Origin: a virus
DNA: 47,827 nucleotides
Strand: one strand, 5' to 3'
Virus record (IMG/VR): IMGVR_UViG_3300024346_000115
Coordinates: 1-47,827 of that record
Of this stretch, positions 18,254 to 40,058 are shown in pieces (position 1 is the stretch's first letter; every line of letters starts with the position of its first letter). Made by a program: the position numbers and the translations under genes. The notes below the pieces were generated by a model that worked only from the letters and a program-made list of their open reading frames with translations, did not search any database and was not told where the DNA came from.

Positions 18254-18637
18254 ATGAGTATTCTCGGTTCTGTGCTGGGCAGTCTGGGCGGAAAAGTTGT
18301 TGAGGCAATTGATAGCCGCGGCCAACGAAAGCACGAGCAATCAGTTCAAAAGATTGAGCTAGAAAAGCTACGACACACAAAGCAAATCGAAATGATCCAG
18401 CAGGGTCAGCAGATGGACAATGCGTGGGAGCTTCAGCAAATCAAAAACTCAGGATGGAAGGACGAATTTGTTCTTCTACTTCTCAGCATACCTCTCGTTA
18501 TGTCTTTCATTCCCCAGATGCAGCCTTATGTTGTCGATGGCTTTGTGGCCCTATCAACAACGCCCGATTGGTATCAGTGGCTGATTTTATCTGTATTTGC
18601 TGCGATCTATGGAATCCGTATCTGGAGGCGCAAATGA
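18254..18637 (+). CDS. Holin-like membrane protein (3TM / GTA-type holin)
   Basis: A 127-residue protein from ATG 18254 (GGAGAGG 4-10 nt upstream; the earlier ATG at 18206 would add 16 unlikely residues). The N-terminal SILGSVLGSLGGKVVEAID is amphipathic. A charged helix (KHEQSVQKIELEKLRHTKQ) follows, then WKDEFVLLLLSIPLVMSFIP and WYQWLILSVFAAIYGIRIW as two strong membrane helices, ending in RRK. This is the layout of the PF11351-type 3TM holin family. It would make the membrane lesion for lysis or serve in ejection. It overlaps the next gene by 4 bp (ATGA). Confidence 0.72.
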   Translation: MSILGSVLGSLGGKVVEAIDSRGQRKHEQSVQKIELEKLRHTKQIEMIQQGQQMDNAWELQQIKNSGWKDEFVLLLLSIPLVMSFIPQMQPYVVDGFVALSTTPDWYQWLILSVFAAIYGIRIWRRK

Positions 18638-20280
18638 CAGGTTTTAGACTCAGGACGTTTGGCGGTAAAGCACCAAAGGTTTTTGCTAGATTGCTACCGG
18701 AGGACATGGCGCAAACAGCAACTAATGTACGTTTAGACTCTGGCCGATTAGAGCCATGGAAAGGTAATGCGTCTGCGACAATCACCCCTGTTGGTTCTTA
18801 TGGTATTACTGGTTCAACTAAGACGTTATTTAAATTCAACTCTTCCATATGGATTGGCAGCCATTCTGTCTTGGACATTGTCCGCTCTCCTCTGGCTGAA
18901 GATTCTCATGAGCGCATTTATATTTCTGGTATAGGTGGGAGCACTGGCTATCCAAGGATGACAACCAGCGCAATTATTGGGAACAACACTTACTATCGCT
19001 TAGGTATACCAAAACCAAATAACATAACCACTGTTGCAACTGATGTTGCGACCGCGAAAACAGACGAAGAAATACCTCAGTCTAGAGCATACGTTTTCAC
19101 GTACGTTTCTGCGTACGGAGAAGAAGGTCAGCCTTGCGATGCTTTAGCGAGTCAAGTAATCGCCGTTTACAGTGACCAGAATGTGGTTGTAACTTTCCCT
19201 ACAAACATCACAGGTAATCACAATCTAACAAAGAAGCGCCTTTACCGCACCGACGCCAGCGGCACGCTTCGATTTGTTGCTGACGTCACACTAGCGACAG
19301 CTTCTTACACCGATTCAAAAACAGACTCGCAACTAGGCGAGGCAATCACCTCTTCAAACTTTGATCCTCCGCCAGATGATATTTCAGCGGACCATCCTGA
19401 CGGCCCTCTTCTCGGTCTCACTGCTATGCCTAATGGCGTTTTTGCAGGATTCTCTGGACGAACAGTCTGCTTTAGTGAAGCTTACTTGCCTCATGCTTTC
19501 CCAGATGAATATAAGCTGGGTGTGAAGTCTGACATCGTGGCGCTTGCTCCTATGCAGACAGGCTTGTTGATCTTAACAGCAGAAAAGCCTTACATGGCCT
19601 CAGGCTTAGACCCTGCATCTGTTGCTCTTACGGAAATAGACTCGACGCTATCATGCGTTGCAGGCCGCTCAGTTGTAGACATGGGGTCGTCTATTATGTA
19701 TGCCAGTCCTGACGGATTAGTGATGGCTACAGACAACGGGTTACGACTAGTCACTGAGGATCTGCTTACTAGGGATCAGTGGCAGGCACTTGTCCCCTCT
19801 TCTATTGTGGGGTTTATGTGGGAAGGCCATTACATTGGGTTCTACAACACCGGCTCTGATCAGAAAGGATTTATTTTTGATCCGCGGGGAGAAAAAAATT
19901 CCCTCACCGACCTAGACTTTTATGCTACCGCAGGCTTCAACGACCTAGAAGAAGATGAGTTATACCTAGTAGTAGGTGGAGCGGTTAAGAAGTTTGCGGC
20001 TGGAAGTGCTCTTGCCTATACGTGGAAGTCCAAAAAGTTTTATAACAGCAGGCCCATAAACCCCGGCGTCGCTAAGGTACAGGCAGACAGCTATGGGTCT
20101 GGTATTACCTTTAAGCTCTATGCGGATGGGACATTGCAGCACACTCAAGTGGTGACCAGCGACGAACTGTTCCGACTTCCTTCAGGATACAAAGCAAAAG
20201 AGTTTGAGGTAGAGCTGACTGGATCTGATGCCATCAACGAGGTTTGTGTGTACGAATCGGCTGGAGAAATAAATGGCTAA
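18634..20280 (+). CDS. Tail nozzle/stabilisation-type beta-propeller protein
   Basis: A 548-residue, beta-rich protein. The opening FRLRTFGGKAPKVFARLLPEDMAQTATNVRLDSGRLEPW is the known start of a podovirus protein group often annotated as virion stabilisation protein or tail tubular protein B. Repeated strands such as SRAYVFTYVSAYGEEGQP and KRLYRTDASGTLRFVADV, and the segment PHAFPDEYKLGVKSDIVALAP, support this. It likely forms the nozzle at the tail end. ATG 18634 overlaps the holin stop; the open frame extends further upstream but only inside the holin gene. Confidence 0.78.
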   Translation: MTGFRLRTFGGKAPKVFARLLPEDMAQTATNVRLDSGRLEPWKGNASATITPVGSYGITGSTKTLFKFNSSIWIGSHSVLDIVRSPLAEDSHERIYISGIGGSTGYPRMTTSAIIGNNTYYRLGIPKPNNITTVATDVATAKTDEEIPQSRAYVFTYVSAYGEEGQPCDALASQVIAVYSDQNVVVTFPTNITGNHNLTKKRLYRTDASGTLRFVADVTLATASYTDSKTDSQLGEAITSSNFDPPPDDISADHPDGPLLGLTAMPNGVFAGFSGRTVCFSEAYLPHAFPDEYKLGVKSDIVALAPMQTGLLILTAEKPYMASGLDPASVALTEIDSTLSCVAGRSVVDMGSSIMYASPDGLVMATDNGLRLVTEDLLTRDQWQALVPSSIVGFMWEGHYIGFYNTGSDQKGFIFDPRGEKNSLTDLDFYATAGFNDLEEDELYLVVGGAVKKFAAGSALAYTWKSKKFYNSRPINPGVAKVQADSYGSGITFKLYADGTLQHTQVVTSDELFRLPSGYKAKEFEVELTGSDAINEVCVYESAGEING

Positions 20281-28828: not shown

Positions 28829-31800
28829 ATGCCATTAGTATCCTATGAAGACGACGATTCGATTGACCTTTTCATTCGTGAACAAGATCGATTAGGTCGT
28901 GCAAATACGCGCCAGCAGAAAACCGAGGAGCGTGCTTCCGCACAGCGAGAAATAGCCAACCTCGAAGATGAGACAAATGAGTCAGGCGATTTTGTTACGG
29001 GCGTCAAAGCTGGTTTCAAGCAAACGCAAGGTTTAGGCGGCGGCGTAAAAGCCCTTGCTGGATCTGTTTTTGGAAACGAGGATTGGGTCCGCGATGGCTT
29101 GGATTACTACAACGAGAAGATGGCTGAAGCAGAGGGTCTTGGTGGTAATGCTACCCGCGTTGAGGACATTGATGGCTTTGGCGATGCTCTTGATTATATG
29201 CAGTACACTCTCGGCACTCTTGTTCCTGACCTTCTTGGCGGGGGCGTTGTCGGATTTGCTGCGAAGGCTGGTGCCAAAAAGGTTGCCAAAGAATCCTTCA
29301 AAGAAGCTATTGATACTCGTGTCCAGCAGTCTGTTGCTGACGGTGCTGTAGAGACCGGGAACAAGATTGCTCTTTCAAAGCTCAGAAAAGAGTATGAGCA
29401 AGAAGCCCTTGGAAAAATACCTAGACGGGCTGCCTTGGTAGGAGCTGGCGCATATAGTGCCGCCCTCAACTCAGGTGAAAACTTTACAGAGATAGAAGCT
29501 GAAACAGGACTCTTAGACCCTGTTGCGGCATTAACAGTAGGTATCGCCCAAGGCGCCCTAGATAACTTCGGCGTGCCCATGAGGGCTTTCAAAAGACTTT
29601 TCCCTGACCGCTCGGCAGAAGGTTTGCGAACAGCAATTGCTGAGCAGATGAATGACAACCGTGGCAACATAAGAAAAATACTAACAGGCACAACTAAGAC
29701 CGCTGGAGTTGAGGGTGGTGTAGAAGCCCTGCAAGAAGTAATGGGCCGCGCCGCGGTGGCTTGGGCAAATGAGAGCTTGCCTGAATCTGAGAAGCAGGAA
29801 TTCCTTGATATTATGGGGGGAGAGAACGCTCAATCCCTGTACCTCAACTCTTTTGTAGCTGGCGCTTTAGGTGGCTCTGTTATTGGAGGCACTGCGGAAA
29901 CGCTAGACGCTGTTAGACCTCAGTTTGATCCAAAAGATTTTGACGATCGCCTAGCCAAGATGGTTGAGGCTAAGCGAGCTGCAAAAAAAGCAGCCGCGGA
30001 AGCAGATAACACCCCCCAAGAAGATAAGATTAAGCTAGGAGATATGCCCCTAGAGCCAGAAGAGCAGACTATCTACTTGGGCAGTCTACCCGGACCTCTA
30101 CAGCAGCAGTTACTTGATGACGGTATAGAGGATGACACTGCGCCGATAGCAGCCGTCCAAGCATCTATCGAGAAGCTAGATGGCATTCAGCAGCAGAAAT
30201 CAAAGGCTGCCCTAGAAAGACAAGGCATTGCTAGCCGTCGCCGTAGAAAGGTTCAGGCTGAAAAAGAGCCCGGCGTGGTTGCGTTTGAGGGGCCGATATT
30301 CACCGTTGCTACACCTCAGTCACTGAAGGAAAAGCAATCGGAGTTAGAGCAACAAACAAAGGAAGGCTCAGAGAAGATTCAGGTGAATGGTGATGACACC
30401 TACACACCAGAGTCTATTTCTTTTTCTGGATTGCTGAAGACCATAACCGGCGCCCGTGGTGGCGACCCTATGATCAACAATAAAAATGAGTCTGAAGATC
30501 CTATAGTTTTGCAGCCTCTAGCTGATCGCTATGAAAACCCTAGAGATCCGTTAGAAGTTCCTGAGCTAGAAGAGACCATGTCCATTTACTTGGATCTATT
30601 GGATCGAGGTGTCCCCCGGCAGCACATAGAATCCGTAACCGGTACGTATGCTATAGAGGGTGACGTAGATCTTCCTGACGACGCAGTTGCTGCATACTTC
30701 CCCCAGTCTGGGGCAGTAGGAATTAACACGCAGCAGCTTACACAAGGGCTGTCAGATGAAGAGGCAGCTCGTGTAAATCGATTCGCAATGGCCCATGAGG
30801 TATGGCATTCAGCCGACAGTGAGCAAGGCTACTCAGATACCCTCCCCGACTTGGCTATGGATTTCGCAGATGTTGATGGAGACGGCTTGCCTGACATGGA
30901 CCTCGGCGATGTTGTCGATGAGATTTATGTTAACTGGGAGAACGGAACCGATCTTGGTAAGCGTTTCGGCTATCCATTTAACTTTCTTGAGGGCATGCTC
31001 AATGACGCAGCTCCTGAAGACCGGCCGGAGATACTTCGGTCAACGCAGCGAGAAGTTTTCGCGCAGCTCGGGGCAATGCTTACAGCTAATCCAAAGCTAC
31101 TTAAAGAAAGCGCTCCAAAGGCGTACAATCTTATCAAGTCACTGCGAGACAACCCAACCCTAACTGCGGAGAACATCACCAGTGAACAGGCGCAAGATCA
31201 AACAGACAGTCCTTCCACCGATGCTACAGCAGTACCGGGACAAGTTCGGGCACCTCCCATCGAGGGAAGCCCAGAAGTTCAAGACGATGGAGGAGCTGGA
31301 CCAGTTAGCGGAGATGGCCTTGAGACGGGGCAAGCCGATCAGGAGCTGGGAGGACAGACCGAACCTGAGGACGGGGACGCTGCTGGACAACTTCTACGGC
31401 AACAAGTAATTGATTTCGTAGCCTCACAAGGTGAGGTTGCCGGCATCTCGTCAATCCAAAAGAACATCCGTAAGGGGTTCAATCCAACCGTTGAGGTAAT
31501 CGACGAGCTGTTAGCCGATGGTTTGCTCGAGGAAAACTTTGCCCCCGACGGTTCGCGTTCATACAAAATCCCAGAGCAGGCAGAACCTCAGCAGCAGACT
31601 GAAGATCCGCAGGCGATAAGACGGCAAGTCCCTATTTCGAATGCTGTAGAGCGGGCAAAAACCAAGTATGCAGAATACTCTACAGCTCTTGAAGAGGAGT
31701 TCTTTGGCAACTTCTGGCCTAAGATCTTGTCTGAAGTTGGTGGGACCGTAGAACCTGAAAAGACCAAGACTGCTGCTAAGCGTGCGGTAAAGGATATTGA

Positions 31801-34800
31801 GGATTGGGTTCGGGAGAACCCCAAGTACAACAATTACTATAGTGAAGACATGGCAGCCGTTCGTCAGTCTCTAGAAGAGTATTATGGAGACGTTAACGAC
31901 GACGATCTTCTATTTTTTCAAGTTGCTAATGGACTGACTTCTCCGGCCACCCAGCTCAAATCCAATGTTGGCGATGCTGTTAGAGTGCTGAACCTGTTTA
32001 AAACAGAAGGGAACTTAGACTCGATAGTTATGGGTGTCAGCGCTAAAGGTAACGCTGTCATCGACTCAACACCTATCTCTATCTCAGGCACTACCGGACC
32101 AACAAAAGCACGGTCCTTGAAGGTGTTTGATCGACTCATTAAAGAAAAAGGTGGTGTACGACAGGCTGTCGATTTCTTGAAAGAAGGCGTCACCCCAAAA
32201 GAATTACAGGCTTTTAACCGTGAGATGGGCTACGTAAGCAACATACCGGGCATACCTGCGATCAAGGCTTTAGTTCAATCAGCTACAGGACAAAATCAAC
32301 TACTCCCGAGATTCTTTATCTTCAACAAGAAGATCGGTGCCTACACGATGAATTTGTCCGGAGATCCACGATATACTACAGTGGACGTTTGGGAATCGCG
32401 GTTCATCAGAAGTTATTTTGATGGACTTTATCAAGAGAACACCGGTCTACCCGCAACTGCTTCTGAAAGTGAGCTGTTCCAAGAGTTCTCAAGCCTGTTT
32501 AAAGAAGAATATGACAGGATAACCGGCGGCAATGCCGACCCATCAACTCTTCAGGCAATGCGTTGGTTCTATATGATCAATGCAGCTAGAGAGTCTGGGT
32601 ATAGAGGAGCTTCAACAAATGAAACAATCTCAGAAATCACCGCCCAGCAACTCCAAAGGCTTGGAGGACGCAGCGAAGCTAGCGGGCGAGCGAGCGATGA
32701 AACGGTTAATGCTGAAAATGAAAGCCAACCGGAACCAGTCGCAGAAGAAGGAACCTCAGGACAAGTAGAAAACCCTGAGGCTATACGTGTCCCCTCGTAC
32801 CGAAGCGAAGACGCCAAAACAATAGCTCTTAGGGATACGGCTCGTGAAAACGAAAACATCCCGTACCATGAAACAATCAGTGAGCTTGAAGAAGACAACC
32901 GCTTCTGGATTGACGAGCTTGATGTTACCCCGCGATTTAAAAGGCTTCTCAAAGCGCTAGATCGAGAAGACTATTTGGGCTTTGACACAGTAGACGAAGC
33001 ATTACGAATGCTGTTCAGGGATCTCGATCCCGTTGAGAACTTTGACCTATCTCCTGCCTTCAAGTCTGCGCTTGGTAGATACATTAACGACGTTAACGGC
33101 TTCACTGCCGAGGACGTTCAGTACATCCGGGTAGATGAACCGTTCCAGCAGGACGTCAGCTTTAATCTTAACGACGATTACACCGTAGATAAGAGTGTGG
33201 ATAGTCGCCTTAAAAGGCTAATGCCAAAAGGGATTACTCGTAAGCTTAGTGATCGCCTTGAAAGATTAAAGGATCTTGAGAATCGATTTGCTCAAGTCCT
33301 TGGTCTTGATCGACTGCCTTCTGCTTTTTCTGCTTACGACAACGAAAACCTCATGCACTCCAAAGCTCAGAAGCAGCTGGATGATTTTGAGGAAGAGCAC
33401 GTCAAGCCAATTGCTGAATTAATTGCCGATGCTGACGTAGATTTAGAGCAGGTTGGTTTGTATCTGTTAGCCAAGCACGCCCCTGAGCGTAACGCCAAGA
33501 TTGCACAGCAAGAGCGTGATCTACGTGAACAGCAAATCCAAGCTCTTGAAGAGCAGATGGATACCGTCGAGGACGAGAGCGATCTAAACCTTATCAAGAA
33601 AAAACTTGATGTCCTTAAAACTGCACCGTTCAAGTATCAAGAAAAAGGTTCAGGACTTACTGATGCAGAAGCAGAGGCAATCATTGAGCTTGCTGAATCA
33701 GAAGGTCAGGCCAATTCTCTTGAAGGGATTGCAGACCGCGTCTACCAGATGCTCACACAAATGCGAGAGAACATGGTTGAGCAGGGTTTGCTCGACAACA
33801 GGACCAGAGAGGACTGGCAGGACACGTATCAATTCTATGTGCCTTTGAAAGGATTTGCCGCATTCCCTGAAGGTCTTGAGATGAAGGGTGGTAATGGGAC
33901 ACAGGGCTTCAGTATCAAAGGCTCTGAAAGCTTCAAGGCCAGAGGTCGGATAACCCTACCCGTCAACCCACTAACGGTATCGATGAAGGATGCCGAAGAA
34001 AAAATTGTGCGCGGGGAAAAAAATAGAACCGCCCAAAAATTACTCAAGATGTTTGAGAAGTTCCAGTCTCCTGATAACTGGAGAGTGTATAACCAGAAGG
34101 TGCGACCACCACGCGATAACAACCCTTCTGAAATGAAAAGCAATCAAGAGCTACGTTCAGAGCGTCGTGCTGACGATGGGCTGCCCCGGTACATAGAGGT
34201 AAAGCGTAGAGGCAAGTCGTTCTTCATTGAAGTCAGAGATCAGGAGCTAAACCGGCAGCTACAAAGTGGCGGTGTTGGCATGTTCAACAACCAAGTCGAC
34301 TTCATGAACAAGGCTCTGACCAACATGCAGAAGTTTCAAAACTTCCGCCGCAATATGCTGATCAACTACAACCCATCGTGGGGTCTTGTTAACCCGATAC
34401 GGGATATACAGACTGGTTTAGCTTTTGCTATTTCAGAGCTTGACGCAAAGGGTGGCCGGCTTGAAGGCAAGTTTGACGGAGTTACTGACCTTGTTGGAAA
34501 AGTAGGCAAGTCATACATGCCCTCTCTCAAGGCGTTCTACAGAGCGCGCAGAGGTTCTGAAGGTAAGACTGAGGAAGCAAGAGAGTACGATCAGTACGCT
34601 AGCGAATACATCGAGGACGGTGCTCCTACTGGCCTTTCTGTCGCAAAGTCGTTAGAAGAGCAGCAGGCCAGATTTGAAACGATCATGGGGCAGTCTGCTA
34701 AGGCAAAAGGCATCAATAAGCTACGGCCTTTCTTTGACTGGGTCGAAGATGCCAACCAGACGACTGAGAATGCTGCCCGGTTATCTACCTATATAGAGGC

Positions 34801-36040
34801 CAGAAAGGCGGGTGTAGAGCGTGCAGATGCCGCAACTCTAGCAAAAGACTTGACGGTTAACTTTAACCGCAAGGGTGAGTATAGCTCCGCAATTGATAGC
34901 TTGTATTTATTCTTCAATGCCGCCGTTCAGGGTAACGTCAACATTATTAAGGCGCTAGCCCGCGGCAAGAAAGACGGAGGCGTTAGCAAGGCTCAGACTG
35001 TGGCAGCAAGCATGGTGATGTTTGGCTTCGCTAGAACATTGGCCAACATCTCAATGGCCGGTGAGGATGACGACGGAGAATCGAACTACGTTGACTACAA
35101 CGAGTATGTGATGAAGACCGCCATGGTGTTCACAGATGGTCGTCAGGGCTATGCAATGCCAATGCCGTACGGCTATGGTCTGTTAGACAACATCGGTCGG
35201 TTCGGTGCAGAGATGGCAATGGGCATCAAGACGCCGGAGCAGGTGTCTGTGGATTTAGCCACATCTGTCGATCATCACTTCAACCCCATGAGTTTGCACG
35301 CAACTGGTGACGATAGAGACCTGATCGAAAGCGCAATCCTAAAAGGCATGTTCTTCCTTAGTCCAGACATTGGTGACATGGCTATCGAGCAGATTGCCAA
35401 CATCAACTTCTTTGGATCTAACGTAACCATTCCTCAAAACCCGCTGATGGTAGAAAGACCTGCGGCATATGCCTCAAAGCGCGGTACAAACGAAGCCGTA
35501 ACCGCAATCACTGAGTTCCTTAATGACATTTCAGGGGGCAGTGAGTATCGCAGCGGCGCTGTGGACCTTAATCCAGAGAGAATCATGCACTTCTACGAGT
35601 TCTTAATGGGTGGCGTAGGTCGATTCTTGGATGACTCGTCTGACACTGTGATGAAGATGGCTTCCGAAGAGCCTGATCTCTTCCCTAAAGACATTCCCAT
35701 ACTGCGTACCTTTGCTCCTATGGCGAGCGAGTACTCAGACAGGGTCACCTTCTACAGTAATCGTGGCGACTACCAGCAGTATAGAAAAGAGTACAAAGAA
35801 TCGACACCAGCTGACCGTAGAAACTTACAGCAACGATTTGGCCCAAGGCTGTATCAGTTCGAGATTACTCACAAACAAATTGAGAAGCAGCTTAGAGACC
35901 TTAGAAAGAGGAAGAAGGCTTTGTACGATGACAAAGTGATTGACTCGATGATGAGGTGGAAAAAGTTGCAAGCTATTGCTGAGAGAGAAGAGCGACTTTA
36001 CGACGAATACAACAAGCGATTCGAGTCGGTAAGACCGTAA
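28829..36040 (+). CDS. Giant polyvalent ejection protein with zincin and LPD38-like domains
   Basis: A 2,403-residue protein, last in the late operon where T7 has gp16. Parts in order: an N-terminal region with three Gly/Ala-rich hydrophobic segments (about 120-150, 200-250, 335-360); linkers; a zinc-protease-like domain with HEVWH at 656-660 and a likely third ligand E742 in REVFAQL; a winged-helix block at about 858-914 resembling FtsK gamma (ISSIQKNIRKGFNPTVEVIDEL); a polyvalent-type domain at about 930-1310; helical linkers; and from about 1848 (NPSWGLVNPIRDIQTG) an LPD38-like domain through LYLFFNAAVQGNVN at 2025. It probably enters the cell with the DNA and carries enzymes that protect or assist it. 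No lytic transglycosylase motif was recognised. Confidence 0.8.
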   Translation: MPLVSYEDDDSIDLFIREQDRLGRANTRQQKTEERASAQREIANLEDETNESGDFVTGVKAGFKQTQGLGGGVKALAGSVFGNEDWVRDGLDYYNEKMAEAEGLGGNATRVEDIDGFGDALDYMQYTLGTLVPDLLGGGVVGFAAKAGAKKVAKESFKEAIDTRVQQSVADGAVETGNKIALSKLRKEYEQEALGKIPRRAALVGAGAYSAALNSGENFTEIEAETGLLDPVAALTVGIAQGALDNFGVPMRAFKRLFPDRSAEGLRTAIAEQMNDNRGNIRKILTGTTKTAGVEGGVEALQEVMGRAAVAWANESLPESEKQEFLDIMGGENAQSLYLNSFVAGALGGSVIGGTAETLDAVRPQFDPKDFDDRLAKMVEAKRAAKKAAAEADNTPQEDKIKLGDMPLEPEEQTIYLGSLPGPLQQQLLDDGIEDDTAPIAAVQASIEKLDGIQQQKSKAALERQGIASRRRRKVQAEKEPGVVAFEGPIFTVATPQSLKEKQSELEQQTKEGSEKIQVNGDDTYTPESISFSGLLKTITGARGGDPMINNKNESEDPIVLQPLADRYENPRDPLEVPELEETMSIYLDLLDRGVPRQHIESVTGTYAIEGDVDLPDDAVAAYFPQSGAVGINTQQLTQGLSDEEAARVNRFAMAHEVWHSADSEQGYSDTLPDLAMDFADVDGDGLPDMDLGDVVDEIYVNWENGTDLGKRFGYPFNFLEGMLNDAAPEDRPEILRSTQREVFAQLGAMLTANPKLLKESAPKAYNLIKSLRDNPTLTAENITSEQAQDQTDSPSTDATAVPGQVRAPPIEGSPEVQDDGGAGPVSGDGLETGQADQELGGQTEPEDGDAAGQLLRQQVIDFVASQGEVAGISSIQKNIRKGFNPTVEVIDELLADGLLEENFAPDGSRSYKIPEQAEPQQQTEDPQAIRRQVPISNAVERAKTKYAEYSTALEEEFFGNFWPKILSEVGGTVEPEKTKTAAKRAVKDIEDWVRENPKYNNYYSEDMAAVRQSLEEYYGDVNDDDLLFFQVANGLTSPATQLKSNVGDAVRVLNLFKTEGNLDSIVMGVSAKGNAVIDSTPISISGTTGPTKARSLKVFDRLIKEKGGVRQAVDFLKEGVTPKELQAFNREMGYVSNIPGIPAIKALVQSATGQNQLLPRFFIFNKKIGAYTMNLSGDPRYTTVDVWESRFIRSYFDGLYQENTGLPATASESELFQEFSSLFKEEYDRITGGNADPSTLQAMRWFYMINAARESGYRGASTNETISEITAQQLQRLGGRSEASGRASDETVNAENESQPEPVAEEGTSGQVENPEAIRVPSYRSEDAKTIALRDTARENENIPYHETISELEEDNRFWIDELDVTPRFKRLLKALDREDYLGFDTVDEALRMLFRDLDPVENFDLSPAFKSALGRYINDVNGFTAEDVQYIRVDEPFQQDVSFNLNDDYTVDKSVDSRLKRLMPKGITRKLSDRLERLKDLENRFAQVLGLDRLPSAFSAYDNENLMHSKAQKQLDDFEEEHVKPIAELIADADVDLEQVGLYLLAKHAPERNAKIAQQERDLREQQIQALEEQMDTVEDESDLNLIKKKLDVLKTAPFKYQEKGSGLTDAEAEAIIELAESEGQANSLEGIADRVYQMLTQMRENMVEQGLLDNRTREDWQDTYQFYVPLKGFAAFPEGLEMKGGNGTQGFSIKGSESFKARGRITLPVNPLTVSMKDAEEKIVRGEKNRTAQKLLKMFEKFQSPDNWRVYNQKVRPPRDNNPSEMKSNQELRSERRADDGLPRYIEVKRRGKSFFIEVRDQELNRQLQSGGVGMFNNQVDFMNKALTNMQKFQNFRRNMLINYNPSWGLVNPIRDIQTGLAFAISELDAKGGRLEGKFDGVTDLVGKVGKSYMPSLKAFYRARRGSEGKTEEAREYDQYASEYIEDGAPTGLSVAKSLEEQQARFETIMGQSAKAKGINKLRPFFDWVEDANQTTENAARLSTYIEARKAGVERADAATLAKDLTVNFNRKGEYSSAIDSLYLFFNAAVQGNVNIIKALARGKKDGGVSKAQTVAASMVMFGFARTLANISMAGEDDDGESNYVDYNEYVMKTAMVFTDGRQGYAMPMPYGYGLLDNIGRFGAEMAMGIKTPEQVSVDLATSVDHHFNPMSLHATGDDRDLIESAILKGMFFLSPDIGDMAIEQIANINFFGSNVTIPQNPLMVERPAAYASKRGTNEAVTAITEFLNDISGGSEYRSGAVDLNPERIMHFYEFLMGGVGRFLDDSSDTVMKMASEEPDLFPKDIPILRTFAPMASEYSDRVTFYSNRGDYQQYRKEYKESTPADRRNLQQRFGPRLYQFEITHKQIEKQLRDLRKRKKALYDDKVIDSMMRWKKLQAIAEREERLYDEYNKRFESVRP

Positions 36041-36272: not shown

Positions 36273-36284
36273 AAGGTTCAACTC
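36273..36284 (+). repeat. AAGGTTCAACTC direct repeat, right copy (possible integrase arm site)
   Basis: Exact second copy of the 12-mer at 36040-36051. It overlaps the 3' end of the integrase gene on the other strand. Candidate arm-type integrase site. Confidence 0.45.
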
Positions 36285-37165
36285 GCTCTCAACTTGCCCT
36301 CAATGCGACTTGCAGCGTCCAACTTATGGAAGTTGCTCATGTGGGTATAGCGCTGTAACGAATTAAGCGAACGCCATCCACCAATCTCCATCAGCTCACG
36401 AGTGTCAGTCTGAGCTTGGAAGTGCCACGTCGCAAACGTGTGTCGCATTGTATGAAAGCTTGTGCCCTTAGGTAGTCCGGCTAAGTCCACAGCCTTCCGC
36501 CAAGTCTTATTACAGACCGCGCTACGACTGAACGGCTTGCCGTTATCCTGAACAAAGACGCCGTCAATCTTGCCTCGCAAAAATGGTCTGCGCTTTACCA
36601 ATTCCTCTTGAGCACGCTCACGTCTTTTTAAGATGTCGCGTGCATCACCATTCAGAGGAATGAGTGCCGGCTTACCATTCTTTGTTTCGGTCGACTCAAT
36701 CGACATGTACCTACCGTCCTTGCTTATCTGAGACCAGCGTAGTGTCCGTACGTTGTTGTTGCGTTGTCCGCAACTCAAGGCAAACTCCACCATGTCCGCT
36801 CTCAGCGGGTCTAGCCATCTCAATAAAGATCTAACTTGACCCGGGTCTAAGTGCAACTCTCTCATCGCTTCCGGCAATGTCTCGATTTTTGGCACACCCT
36901 CAATGACTTCAAGCTTGTCCCGTGCGTAGCACAGTGTCAGCCGTAAGTACTTGAGGTACGTGTTCACAGTCGAGTTACTAAGACCGTGCTCGTAAAGCAG
37001 CTCCTCTTGCAGATCGTTAATGTCTTTAGCCCGGATAGTAGAAATGTTTCTATTACCCCAGCGCTCGACCATCTGCTTGATCGCTAGTTTTGCCGCACGA
37101 CTCTTATCATTACCTCTGCGTGTTTTTATTTTTAAATACCGCTCTGCTACATCTTTGAACTTCAT
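36278..37165 (-). CDS. int: Tyrosine integrase
   Basis: A 295-residue site-specific recombinase. An N-terminal SAM-like core-binding domain (about 1-95, ISTIRAKDINDLQEELLYEHGLSNSTVNTYLKYLR region) is followed by the catalytic domain with R135 (CGQRNNNVRTLRW), K162 (TKNGKPALIPL), H238-x-x-R241 (FHTMRHTFATW), W264 (GGWRS) and the nucleophile Y273 (RYTHMS). The start at 37165 has GGAGA 6-10 nt upstream, while the ATG at 37195 would add ten residues. It should integrate the phage at the host tRNA-Gly(GCC) gene whose 3' half is just downstream. No separate excisionase is recognised. Confidence 0.93.
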   Translation of the reverse strand: MKFKDVAERYLKIKTRRGNDKSRAAKLAIKQMVERWGNRNISTIRAKDINDLQEELLYEHGLSNSTVNTYLKYLRLTLCYARDKLEVIEGVPKIETLPEAMRELHLDPGQVRSLLRWLDPLRADMVEFALSCGQRNNNVRTLRWSQISKDGRYMSIESTETKNGKPALIPLNGDARDILKRRERAQEELVKRRPFLRGKIDGVFVQDNGKPFSRSAVCNKTWRKAVDLAGLPKGTSFHTMRHTFATWHFQAQTDTRELMEIGGWRSLNSLQRYTHMSNFHKLDAASRIEGKLRAS

Positions 37166-37172
37166 ATGACTC

Positions 37173-37179
37173 TCCGTGT
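37173..37179 (-). promoter_or_regulatory. ACACGGA leader motif at the integrase start
   Basis: On the minus strand ACACGGA ends 7 nt before the integrase ATG. GGAG here is also the Shine-Dalgarno core. The same heptamer occurs 7-8 nt before three other genes (40058, 40696, 40855). It is close to the CsrA-binding core ACANGGA. Confidence 0.5.
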
Positions 37180-37212
37180 GTATGAAGCCCCGCACCGCAG
37201 CTATACCTTATC

Positions 37213-37238
37213 AAAAAAAGGGGGGCGTTTCCGCCCCC
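37213..37238 (-). terminator. Leftward rho-independent terminator
   Basis: Read leftward, GGGGGCG (37238-37232) pairs with CGCCCCC (37227-37221) around GAAA, and U7 follows (37219-37213; A-run on the plus strand). It ends the recombination operon (40058-37331) before the integrase, which must therefore have its own promoter or depend on read-through. Confidence 0.85.
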
Positions 37239-37305
37239 AATCACAAGGAGCCACCTTTCGGGGCGGCACGTTTTTTAGTCACTGGTGTGCCAAGCCAGTC
37301 AGGAA

Positions 37306-37328
37306 CTCGGGTACCTATCAGACCCGAG
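37306..37328. repeat. 7-bp inverted repeat after the recombination operon
   Basis: CTCGGGT (37306-37312) and ACCCGAG (37322-37328) can pair around a 9-nt loop. It begins two bases beyond the last stop codon of the leftward operon. There is no U-tract. It could stabilise the mRNA 3' end or be an operator. Confidence 0.5.
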
Positions 37329-37330
37329 GA

Positions 37331-37570
37331 CTAATTAACAACCTCGCCTTCTGCCACTTCCTCTGCCTCTTGGGGGAGGGGTTCCGGCAGAAGCTTTTTA
37401 GCATCAGCCAAGGTTGAGTCTGCACCGGCTCGAGCTGCCTCAAGTAAAGGTGTCAGCATCTGGATTGCTTGGTTAGCTTGTTGAACGAGTGCCAGCATCT
37501 GGCGAGGTCGCTCTCCAATCTCTTGAAAGTTGTACGACTTACCGTCGATACTAATTGTTTGATCACTCAT
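37331..37570 (-). CDS. Small DUF6447-like protein
   Basis: A 79-residue protein starting MSDQTISIDGKSYNFQEIGERPRQMLALVQQ, the pattern of small phage proteins assigned to DUF6447 (T-I-DGK-x-Y then a helix with x-A-x-x-QL). The rest is an acidic helix with Pro/Glu-rich end (LPEPLPQEAEEVAEGE). It overlaps the gene upstream by 4 bp (ATGA). Function unknown. Confidence 0.65.
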   Translation of the reverse strand: MSDQTISIDGKSYNFQEIGERPRQMLALVQQANQAIQMLTPLLEAARAGADSTLADAKKLLPEPLPQEAEEVAEGEVVN

Positions 37571-37965
37571 CTTTTATGCTTACTCCTAGCGTTGTTTCGT
37601 AAAAGTTCATATGACCTTGGCGCTTGCACCAAGATCCTTGCTTGTGGGACGACCCTATTCTTGCTGAGGTCACCTCGCCCACAAATCTCACAGAAGTCAT
37701 CAGGCGTGTACCAGTACTCCTGAATTCCTACGAGAGCTATTGAGACTGTGGGGCTGACCTCTAGGATCTCACCACCAACAGTCATAAGTTGTTCAACACA
37801 GCCGTCTTTGGAATACACATTTAAGAGACAATCTTGCTTGCCCTTGTGGTCCCGGACGCGTCGAACCCATATTTTGTGCTCGAACGTAGTCTCTGGACTT
37901 TGGGGGTCCATGTTCTTTCCCCCGTATAAGACGCTATCGACAGCTCGCGTTAGCCGTAAACCCAT
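37567..37965 (-). CDS. CsrA-like RNA-binding protein with two insertions (candidate)
   Basis: A 132-residue protein. Residues 2-16 (GLRLTRAVDSVLYGG) resemble CsrA strand 1 (LILTRRVGETLMIGD). Residues about 72-82 (PTVSIALVGIQ) match strand 2. Residues 108-123 (QARILVQAPRSYELLR) match QVRIGVNAPKEVSVHR, including the AP turn and the RNA-binding arginine (R44 in E. coli CsrA, R123 here). About 55 residues are inserted after strand 1, and about 25 with a CxxC (92-95) between strands 2 and 3. CsrA proteins bind GGA motifs at ribosome sites and control translation. The match is by eye; an unrelated beta protein is possible. AAAGG precedes the ATG. Confidence 0.5.
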   Translation of the reverse strand: MGLRLTRAVDSVLYGGKNMDPQSPETTFEHKIWVRRVRDHKGKQDCLLNVYSKDGCVEQLMTVGGEILEVSPTVSIALVGIQEYWYTPDDFCEICGRGDLSKNRVVPQARILVQAPRSYELLRNNARSKHKR

Positions 37966-37975
37966 ATCAATACCT

Positions 37976-38368
37976 TTAAAACGGAATGTCTTCCTCGGGA
38001 AAGTCAGCTTGCTGTGGTGCAGGCTGTGGGGCTGGCTTGTTTGCAGGTTTGTTGGGTAACCAGAACTCGACGTTCAGCTGAGAGACTTCGCCATCGCGCT
38101 TCTGTTCAGCAACTTCTAGGTTGTATCTAAAGGCGTCACCGCCATTGATATCGAGTGCTCCCTGCAACTTATCGATCATGTCCTGATCGATCTTCAGCCA
38201 ACCGTCGAAGCTTGGAATCTTCAGCGCTTGCTGCTCTTTACTTAGATCTGTAAACCAGCCGTACTGCTTGAGCTTGTTGTACTTCTCAAGTTTTTTCTCT
38301 CGATCTAGCGGGTAAAGGCGCCCCTTACCAGCATTAATTGCCTCGAAGGCAGTAGGTTTATTTTGCAT
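37976..38368 (-). CDS. SSB-like single-strand DNA-binding protein
   Basis: A 130-residue protein. The C-terminus has a Pro/Ala/Gln linker followed by DFPEEDIPF, nearly the same as the acidic tip of bacterial SSB (DDDIPF) that recruits partner proteins. The N-terminal 95 residues (FEAINAGKGRLYPLDREKK, WFTDLSKEQQALKIPSFDGWLK, FRYNLEVAEQKRDGE) are not a canonical OB fold by eye and may be divergent. It is coupled to the exonuclease gene (TAATG) and lies in the same operon as an annealing protein, so binding ssDNA during recombination is the likely role. Confidence 0.7.
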   Translation of the reverse strand: MQNKPTAFEAINAGKGRLYPLDREKKLEKYNKLKQYGWFTDLSKEQQALKIPSFDGWLKIDQDMIDKLQGALDINGGDAFRYNLEVAEQKRDGEVSQLNVEFWLPNKPANKPAPQPAPQQADFPEEDIPF

Positions 38369-39390
38369 TAGTCATCTCCGATTGATTTGATTGATGATTG
38401 CAGTGAATTACTCTGCCGACGCCATTCGTCGATAGAGCTATCTTTCTCTAGCAGGGCTTGTTCCCCGCCAAGAAATTCAAATGCCCCGCGGAAATCCACC
38501 GGAGGAGTTTTCTTGATGACCTGTATAGACACGAATCCGTTGGTGATTGACCGCTCGTACTTTTTAACTAGCTCTTTCTTGAGTGCGTCACGGCTAGCCT
38601 TGAGGTGGTCTAGGTCTTGAAGTGCTTGATAGTTCATGACCTCAATCTCATTGATCTTGCCTTGAATGTCGGCAAGCTCAGACATCTGGTCATCTTGGAT
38701 TTCATCGTAGTCAGGCTTCAGCGGATCAAGGTGCTTTTGAGCCCGTTCAGGATCGGCAGCTTCAGCTTGAATGAAGTCATACCAAGCCTTGAACAAATCA
38801 AGTCTAGTGACGGACCCCTTTTTTGGTGTTGGCAACAGCCTTCCTTCAAGCTCCTCGTCCAACCAATCCCAGTTGCGCTCTACTCTATCGATGTGCCATT
38901 GGCCTTCAGCCTGTGGATCGGTCGCTAAGTAGCACATGAAGTCACACCAATCTAGGTCACAGACCTCCATGACCATGTGGCACTGCCACAAATACATGAT
39001 TCGCTTTTCGTCAAAGACCGAGTAAGGCGCCTTGGTCCACTTAGGATAGGGGCACTTGAACTCGGCACAGCCTTCAATACCAATCAGACCATCAGGCGAT
39101 GCGGCTAGGAACGAGTGCTTTGAATGTACAACCAAGCCAGTCTCATCAACTTTGTACCGTTGAATTTGCTCAAGCTTAACCCGGGCATAGTCCTCCATCA
39201 TGGAGCCATGCTCTACTGCCGCGTTGGTTTGAAACTCAGACTCGGCGCCAAGGATAGCCCTTACCTCTTGGCGGACAACTTCCGCGACCTTCATGTAAGG
39301 GTGCTTGTTCTCATAAGCAGCGCAGATACTTGCTTTGATCAGGCCAGCTCTGGCTTTTAGCCACCCTTCAGAACCTTGGGGGTGCATCAT
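38368..39390 (-). CDS. YqaJ/lambda-type recombination exonuclease
   Basis: A 340-residue nuclease. GSEGWLKARAGLIKAS (residues 6-21) is the typical YqaJ start. The PD-(D/E)XK site is D100 (ASPDGLIG) with E110-x-K112 (EFKC), and E66 upstream in GSMMEDYAR. The C-terminal 100 residues form a coiled coil and a small basic end. It digests one strand from double-strand ends so that the annealing protein can act. The start at 39390 gives ATGA overlap with the gene before and has GGGGTGG 7 nt upstream; a GTG three codons earlier is less likely. Confidence 0.88.
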   Translation of the reverse strand: MMHPQGSEGWLKARAGLIKASICAAYENKHPYMKVAEVVRQEVRAILGAESEFQTNAAVEHGSMMEDYARVKLEQIQRYKVDETGLVVHSKHSFLAASPDGLIGIEGCAEFKCPYPKWTKAPYSVFDEKRIMYLWQCHMVMEVCDLDWCDFMCYLATDPQAEGQWHIDRVERNWDWLDEELEGRLLPTPKKGSVTRLDLFKAWYDFIQAEAADPERAQKHLDPLKPDYDEIQDDQMSELADIQGKINEIEVMNYQALQDLDHLKASRDALKKELVKKYERSITNGFVSIQVIKKTPPVDFRGAFEFLGGEQALLEKDSSIDEWRRQSNSLQSSIKSIGDD

Positions 39391-40058
39391 GCTGACCACC
39401 CCTTCTTGCTACAGACCTCTTCCCACCGATTGAGACGGTAGTCTTCCAGCCCGCGAGACTTCAGAGCCTTAACATATCGATCAAACATTTTTTGACCGGC
39501 AGTTTTTGTTCGCGCCTTTTGGATTTCTTCGAGGCTGGTCATCCAAAGCCTATCAATGCTGTTCCTGACTTTTGAGTCCGCTTCTGTGTCGTCCGTGGGT
39601 AAAACATCCCCAGAGGACTGGTCAGTGACTTCTTCTACAACCCCCGGCTCTTCTGCCGTTGGCTTCTTGAGCCACAGTTGATGGCCAAGGCCGAACTCAG
39701 CCATCGCCTTAACGCGACACCTTTGCTTGGCGGTGTTTATTTGAAAGCTGTTTGGGTTGCGTACAACATCACCGCCGTCTCTCACCATGTAAGAGGTGAT
39801 CTGGGTGTGCCCTAAAACCGTCATGCGACACCTAACCTCGCAGGTACCGTCATTGAAGTAATGAACTTCCCGGCTGTCGGGGTCTTCGGTAAATTCCCAT
39901 GTGTATTCTGGGAAGTTTTCCATCATGAGTACGTGCGCGTTCATCCAAGACACAGCGGGAAACTTTTCCCCGCTTATCGTTTCGGACTCAGTGCAGTGTG
40001 GTTTTATGTTTACAGCAGAAAGGGTTGCCCATATGTGGGCTTTAGAAGTCTTGTCCAT
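39387..40058 (-). CDS. DUF1071-type single-strand annealing protein
   Basis: A 223-residue protein with the DUF1071 (Sak-related, Rad52-like) pattern: FPAVSWMNAHVLMMENFPEYTWEF at 33-56, EVHYFNDGTCEVRCRMTVLG, then GGDVVRNPNSFQINTAKQRCRVKAMAEFGLGHQLW at about 94-128, with the conserved QRC-x-KA-x-A-x-FGLG. The acidic linker and helical C-terminus are phage-specific. It anneals complementary strands exposed by the exonuclease encoded next. It heads the operon and has a near-consensus promoter upstream (40098-40125) and an ACACGGA leader. Confidence 0.85.
   Translation of the reverse strand: MDKTSKAHIWATLSAVNIKPHCTESETISGEKFPAVSWMNAHVLMMENFPEYTWEFTEDPDSREVHYFNDGTCEVRCRMTVLGHTQITSYMVRDGGDVVRNPNSFQINTAKQRCRVKAMAEFGLGHQLWLKKPTAEEPGVVEEVTDQSSGDVLPTDDTEADSKVRNSIDRLWMTSLEEIQKARTKTAGQKMFDRYVKALKSRGLEDYRLNRWEEVCSKKGWSA

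Follow-up and report, generated by a model that had tools for sequence, protein, structure and literature searches.

The giant gene and its genomic setting

The window analysed here is the whole of the viral record, 47.8 kb in length, and its most conspicuous feature is a single giant gene (Table 1). Located 5′ of this gene are genes for a terminase, an SU10-type portal, the major head protein, structural proteins including an internal virion protein, and tail fibres. Downstream, the minus strand (36278-40058) carries a tyrosine integrase, a Sak-type annealing protein and a YqaJ exonuclease, and a primase/helicase is encoded on the plus strand beyond these integrase and recombination genes. 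These three minus-strand genes point to a temperate phage that brings recombination functions of its own, and the gene order fits a temperate podovirus-like phage in which the giant gene closes the structural genes. The source phage was probably temperate and aquatic. One part of the giant protein, the module at residues 929-1299, is also present on contigs of 40-44 kb filed under two Verrucomicrobia genome records (L069 and L070); these contigs could be phage sequence, and they are no more than a hint at Verrucomicrobia as hosts of related phages.

The reading frame runs through 2403 codons without interruption, and many stops break the opposite strand. A preliminary description of this DNA had listed a 2,403-residue ORF with HEVWH at residues 656-660, the candidate ligand E742, a block resembling FtsK gamma, and LPD38, and each of these elements is confirmed. 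Judged by its sequence the product is a phage-type polyvalent protein, as several unrelated catalogued domains (zincin, winged helix and LPD38) are combined in one giant polypeptide. All three, the winged helix being of the FtsK type, were reported in the polyvalent proteins described by Iyer et al. 2017 (PMC5512222), the phage-type genes of which likewise stand at the end of structural operons, and this family of polyvalent proteins is already known. The present protein differs in having a DUF7178/HhH-GPD-like module; the word 'glycosylase' is absent from the text of that paper, and no report of glycosylases in ejected phage proteins was found in the collection of papers searched. What is new here is a probable HhH-GPD-type module inside a polypeptide that the virion probably ejects along with its genome.

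Table 1. Positions in the window of the giant gene, its domains and predicted functional residues, and a gene of the same operon
Feature	Position	Strand	Basis or remark
PHROG 511 internal virion protein	18424..20280	+	shares structural operon with giant gene
Polyvalent protein gene	28829..36040	+	2403 aa, ATG start
Zincin-like domain, residues 579-778	30563..31162	+	alignment, four homologues
HEVWH, residues 656-660	30794..30808	+	exact in sequence
E742, third-ligand candidate in REVFAQ	31052..31054	+	invariant, four homologues
FtsK-gamma-like winged helix, residues 858-914	31400..31570	+	Pfam profile, predicted structure, fold matches
HhH-GPD/DUF7178-like module, residues 929-1299	31613..32725	+	best-conserved part of protein
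K1168, predicted catalytic lysine	32330..32332	+	invariant in 28 sequences
D1186, predicted catalytic aspartate	32384..32386	+	invariant in 28 sequences
C-terminal module, residues 1471-2403	33239..36037	+	homologous to giant phage proteins, DarB-like ones included
LPD38, residues 2086-2292	35084..35704	+	Pfam match, E 1.7e-22

Zincin-like domain and adjoining winged helix

An HExxH motif followed by a conserved acidic third-ligand candidate is a feature of all four homologous domains compared, in which H656, E657, H660 and E742 are invariant (4/4). The most distant of these domains, at 30% identity, belongs to another giant phage protein of ~2640 aa (L068:1791-9719, plus strand) that shares this type of zincin and differs in its middle part. 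His is rare in the protein (12 of 2403 residues), and chance alone would give 0.005 HExxH motifs; one arose in 19 of 5000 shuffled sequences. The predicted model of the domain is weak, with an overall pLDDT of 54, and HExxH and E742 lie in two predicted helices whose pLDDT is ~70-78; no zincin was found among the top 50 fold matches of this model, and a PDB sequence search with the domain returned nothing. E698, in the segment DEIY, is likewise invariant across the four domains, and in an hhalign comparison (P 0.014) the region around it falls opposite the EEAVAEL glutamate of the zincins from distant relatives. E742 is nonetheless the more likely third zinc ligand and E698 a minor alternative, since a weak match (E 0.076) links the REVFAQ...P..Y segment in the L015 homologue to the closing part of ATLF, a known zincin family. 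Between HExxH and E742 lies a calcium-loop-like segment, DVDGDGLPD (DxDxDGxxD; 30869-30895), that recurs in L015 and L017 and is absent from L068.

Scans for further zincin relatives yielded one more distant homologue. An HExxH zincin-like stretch lies upstream of the 929-1299 module within the same ORF in 19 relatives, a count that rests on motif and position, the profile having been made from HExxH-selected stretches.

The block at residues 858-914 had been likened to the DNA-binding gamma domain of FtsK. The Pfam FtsK_gamma profile matches residues 858-902 below threshold in a full-length scan (E 0.047), and when the 85-aa block is scanned alone the E-value is 4.9e-4 for the present protein and 7.5e-5 and 8.2e-4 for two homologues. 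The corresponding scores of 20-23 bits lie under the curated Pfam cut-off of 30.6. The predicted structure has the order helix-strand-helix-helix-strand-strand, and winged-helix proteins make up nearly all of its best PDB fold matches (probability near 1, E 0.17 to 1). Predicted topology and fold matches thus agree on a winged helix, and the likeness to FtsK gamma stands for the fold and as a sub-threshold score, not as strict family membership. We accept residues 858-914 as a predicted winged-helix fold that is FtsK-gamma-like rather than a member of the family.

That zincin and winged helix adjoin, and that both are supported, invites the interpretation offered in the preliminary description, in which an injected zincin protease attacks host defence or DNA-bound proteins under the guidance of the winged helix, and injected proteins would suit such effectors. 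Nevertheless, we consider this interpretation improbable, since nothing was found that supports such an attack or points to a target, and, unlike the zincin, which many relatives have, the winged helix is confined to the two closest ones. Moreover, zincins are common hub domains of polyvalent proteins, where their proposed task is to divide the polypeptide into functional units (PMC5512222). In our view such self-processing is a more likely role of the present zincin than attack on host proteins.

A module homologous to DUF7178 and probably related to HhH-GPD glycosylases

The part of the protein that is best conserved, and that the first reading overlooked, is the module at residues 929-1299. 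Of all the modules it would also account best for a DNA-directed activity. Its identity to most uncultured relatives is 50-80%, whereas their C-terminal module is ~25% identical or unrecognisable; a tblastn search of cultured phages with the module gave no match. At the level of sequence profiles, computation establishes that the module is homologous to DUF7178 (PF23802, PHROG 3842). The hhalign comparison has a probability of 96 and E 8.9e-9 (like the E-values that follow in this chain, that of a single comparison), aligns K1168/D1186 on K119/D137, and scores 67 bits; 40 column-shuffled profiles gave 20.1 bits or less, and the reversed profile 13.4. In a direct Pfam scan the module reaches 17 of the 27 bits set for membership in DUF7178 (E 0.0056), and so it is a homologue by profile comparison rather than a member of the family. 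DUF7178 proteins also have a Lys and an Asp 18 residues apart and the motifs SP...N and QA.xW, but they are stand-alone proteins of ~200 aa, half the size of the module, which has long insertions. The Lys/Asp pair does not vary in any of the 28 module sequences or 12 DUF7178 proteins compared.

In HhH-GPD proteins Lys is catalytic in the bifunctional members and Asp across the superfamily. DUF7178 is linked to this superfamily by comparison with Verrucomicrobial endonuclease III/MutY proteins (31 sequences; P 0.0024) and, with Lys and Asp in register, by comparison with a broader set of 39 (E 6.9e-5, 36.5 bits, versus at most 17.3 bits for shuffled and 18.0 for reversed controls). The signal needs the broad set, as an AlkA-like subset and one endonuclease III-like subset each gave none against DUF7178 when used alone. 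Direct comparison of the module with HhH-GPD is marginal (P 0.045), and the assignment therefore rests on the profile chain together with the fold matches described below. Lys and Asp thus occupy the catalytic motif positions of HhH-GPD directly in DUF7178 and, via DUF7178, in the module. PDB sequence searches found no solved-structure match for the module and nothing for DUF7178, and hmmscan gave no significant PF00730 match. Pfam matches to Transglut_core, RAC_head, TAtT and Glyco_hydro_8 were isolated, below cut-off and not common to the relatives, and were rejected.

The model of the module, built from 28 sequences, has a pLDDT of 88.9 and a pTM of 0.86. In it K1168 is at the start of a helix that follows a short turn and D1186 is just ahead of the next helix, a placement that matches that of the Lys and Asp in HhH-GPD proteins, both of which are catalytic in all OGG subfamilies (PMC3397491). 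The segment NKKIGAYTMNLSGDPRYTTVDVWESR of the module recalls the catalytic segment of HhH-GPD glycosylases, a resemblance noted ahead of the structure search. With these enzymes (endonuclease III, OGG and AGOG) the module has in common a predicted helical fold, a Lys that opens the second hairpin helix, an Asp 18 residues past it (the spacing also found in the endonuclease III sequence retrieved) and an Arg at Asp+5; it differs in that FGPK replaces GVGxK and in having no iron-sulphur cysteines. A PDB fold search matched the 8-oxoguanine glycosylase Tga-AGOG with probability 0.51 and E 0.64, not significant alone, and this was the sole match of appreciable probability among the best 50, the others being at or below 0.12. 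Among viral models the matches of the module include long phage proteins, eleven in number with E up to 1e-3 and several annotated as polyvalent, as well as a 198-aa protein of Synechococcus phage S-CBP42 that is a DUF7178 member (probability 1.00) and a halovirus endonuclease III (probability 0.97). Taken together, sequence profiles and predicted structure argue with moderate strength for an HhH-GPD-like fold.

One DUF7178 member matched 154 phage records. In cultured phages these proteins are named inconsistently (L110:30543-31139, L111-L121), as hypothetical, glycosylase, N-glycosylase, endonuclease or glycosyltransferase. The name 'glycosyltransferase' in Rhodococcus phage Jflix2 is likely a mislabel, because the DUF7178 profile match favours an HhH-GPD glycosylase.

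Exchange of the module among relatives

A close relative (L017) is 80% identical in DNA as far as residue 902 and 88% identical again from residue 1404 onwards, but the module between is replaced. The replacement (L017:13100-13880, plus strand; VHDAFGHG...ENAWQAH) is unrelated to the glycosylase-like module and matches 200 phage records, mostly of mycobacteriophages, with annotations of hypothetical, crystallin motif, RelA/SpoT and lysin. Another relative (L015) has ~165 extra residues between the winged helix and the module. Given this swapping and insertion, an accessory effector that is exchangeable fits the module better than a part of the structural core.

These observations also bear on whether the module is HhH-GPD-like and yet a non-enzymatic DNA binder, for example one that holds the genome end in packaging or ejection. 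HhH domains bind DNA, and conservation without a known substrate is no proof of catalysis; but the Lys and Asp at the catalytic positions, invariant in the module and DUF7178 sequences compared, speak against a mere binder, and a packaging part would not be expected to be exchanged in a close relative, so that we regard this explanation as doubtful. Less likely still is that the glycosylase likeness is spurious and that the module and DUF7178 form a separate helical fold in which the Lys/Asp motif is structural: the lack of significant matches to solved structures and PF00730 and the high AGOG E-value would suit this, but the DUF7178-HhH-GPD comparison scores twice as high as its best shuffle and brings both catalytic residues into register, and AGOG and viral endonuclease III are independent fold matches.

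The C-terminal module and probable location in the virion

LPD38 scores 80.9 bits versus a curated Pfam cut-off of 27, which places the region within the family. The C-terminal module that bears it matches giant proteins of 127 phage records at 23-30% identity, including those of Vibrio and Stx-converting phages and, annotated as DarB-like, those of Bcep22-like phages. One of these is the DarB-like gp69 of the Bcep22-like phage JC1, for which mass spectrometry of virions purified on CsCl recovered 51 unique peptides (PMC9144972). JC1 gp69 has its LPD38 at residues 4195-4401 and shares with the present protein a C-terminal module of ~930 aa; its gene is at the same place in the genome, adjoining minus-strand genes. 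It differs in its length of 4515 aa and in having helicase/methylase-like and lytic transglycosylase-like regions, and the shared part is 23-25% identical. From the homology of this one module to a giant protein known from virions, it is fair to infer that the 2403-aa protein is packaged and ejected with the DNA. A further match of the module is to a protein of MetMV, an archaeal virus (MK170447.1:40264-42687; 25% identity over 93% of the module).

Discussion

We propose, with a probability of roughly one half, that the giant gene encodes a polyvalent protein that is ejected and in which the zincin, at entry, sets free a predicted DNA-binding, glycosylase-like module. The LPD38-bearing C-terminal module of 930 residues would provide for packaging and for exit with the DNA, as suggested by its homology to a family found in virions. 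The zincin, the identity of which is supported, would then cut low-complexity linkers and release the middle modules. Once released, the winged helix and the HhH-GPD-type module would together bind DNA, and the K1168/D1186 pair may excise bases or cut abasic sites just after entry. Assuming that the module is active, its likeliest target would be damaged or modified bases of the incoming phage DNA, to which we give slightly less than even odds; host DNA or a defence-related base modification is a slightly weaker candidate.

Virion-delivered enzymes work ahead of phage gene expression. As a tentative generalization, some temperate phages may package a virion DNA glycosylase/AP lyase as an exchangeable polyvalent module that is released by a built-in zincin and acts before expression, with DUF7178 as its stand-alone version elsewhere. 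If this is true, a glycosylase would extend the repertoire of polyvalent proteins by a new activity, and DUF7178 would gain a testable function. Bacterial DNA glycosylases are known as a means of defence, as in the case of Brig1 of the uracil-glycosylase superfamily (PMC11078745), and base excision would then also be found on the phage side of the conflict with bacterial glycosylase defence.
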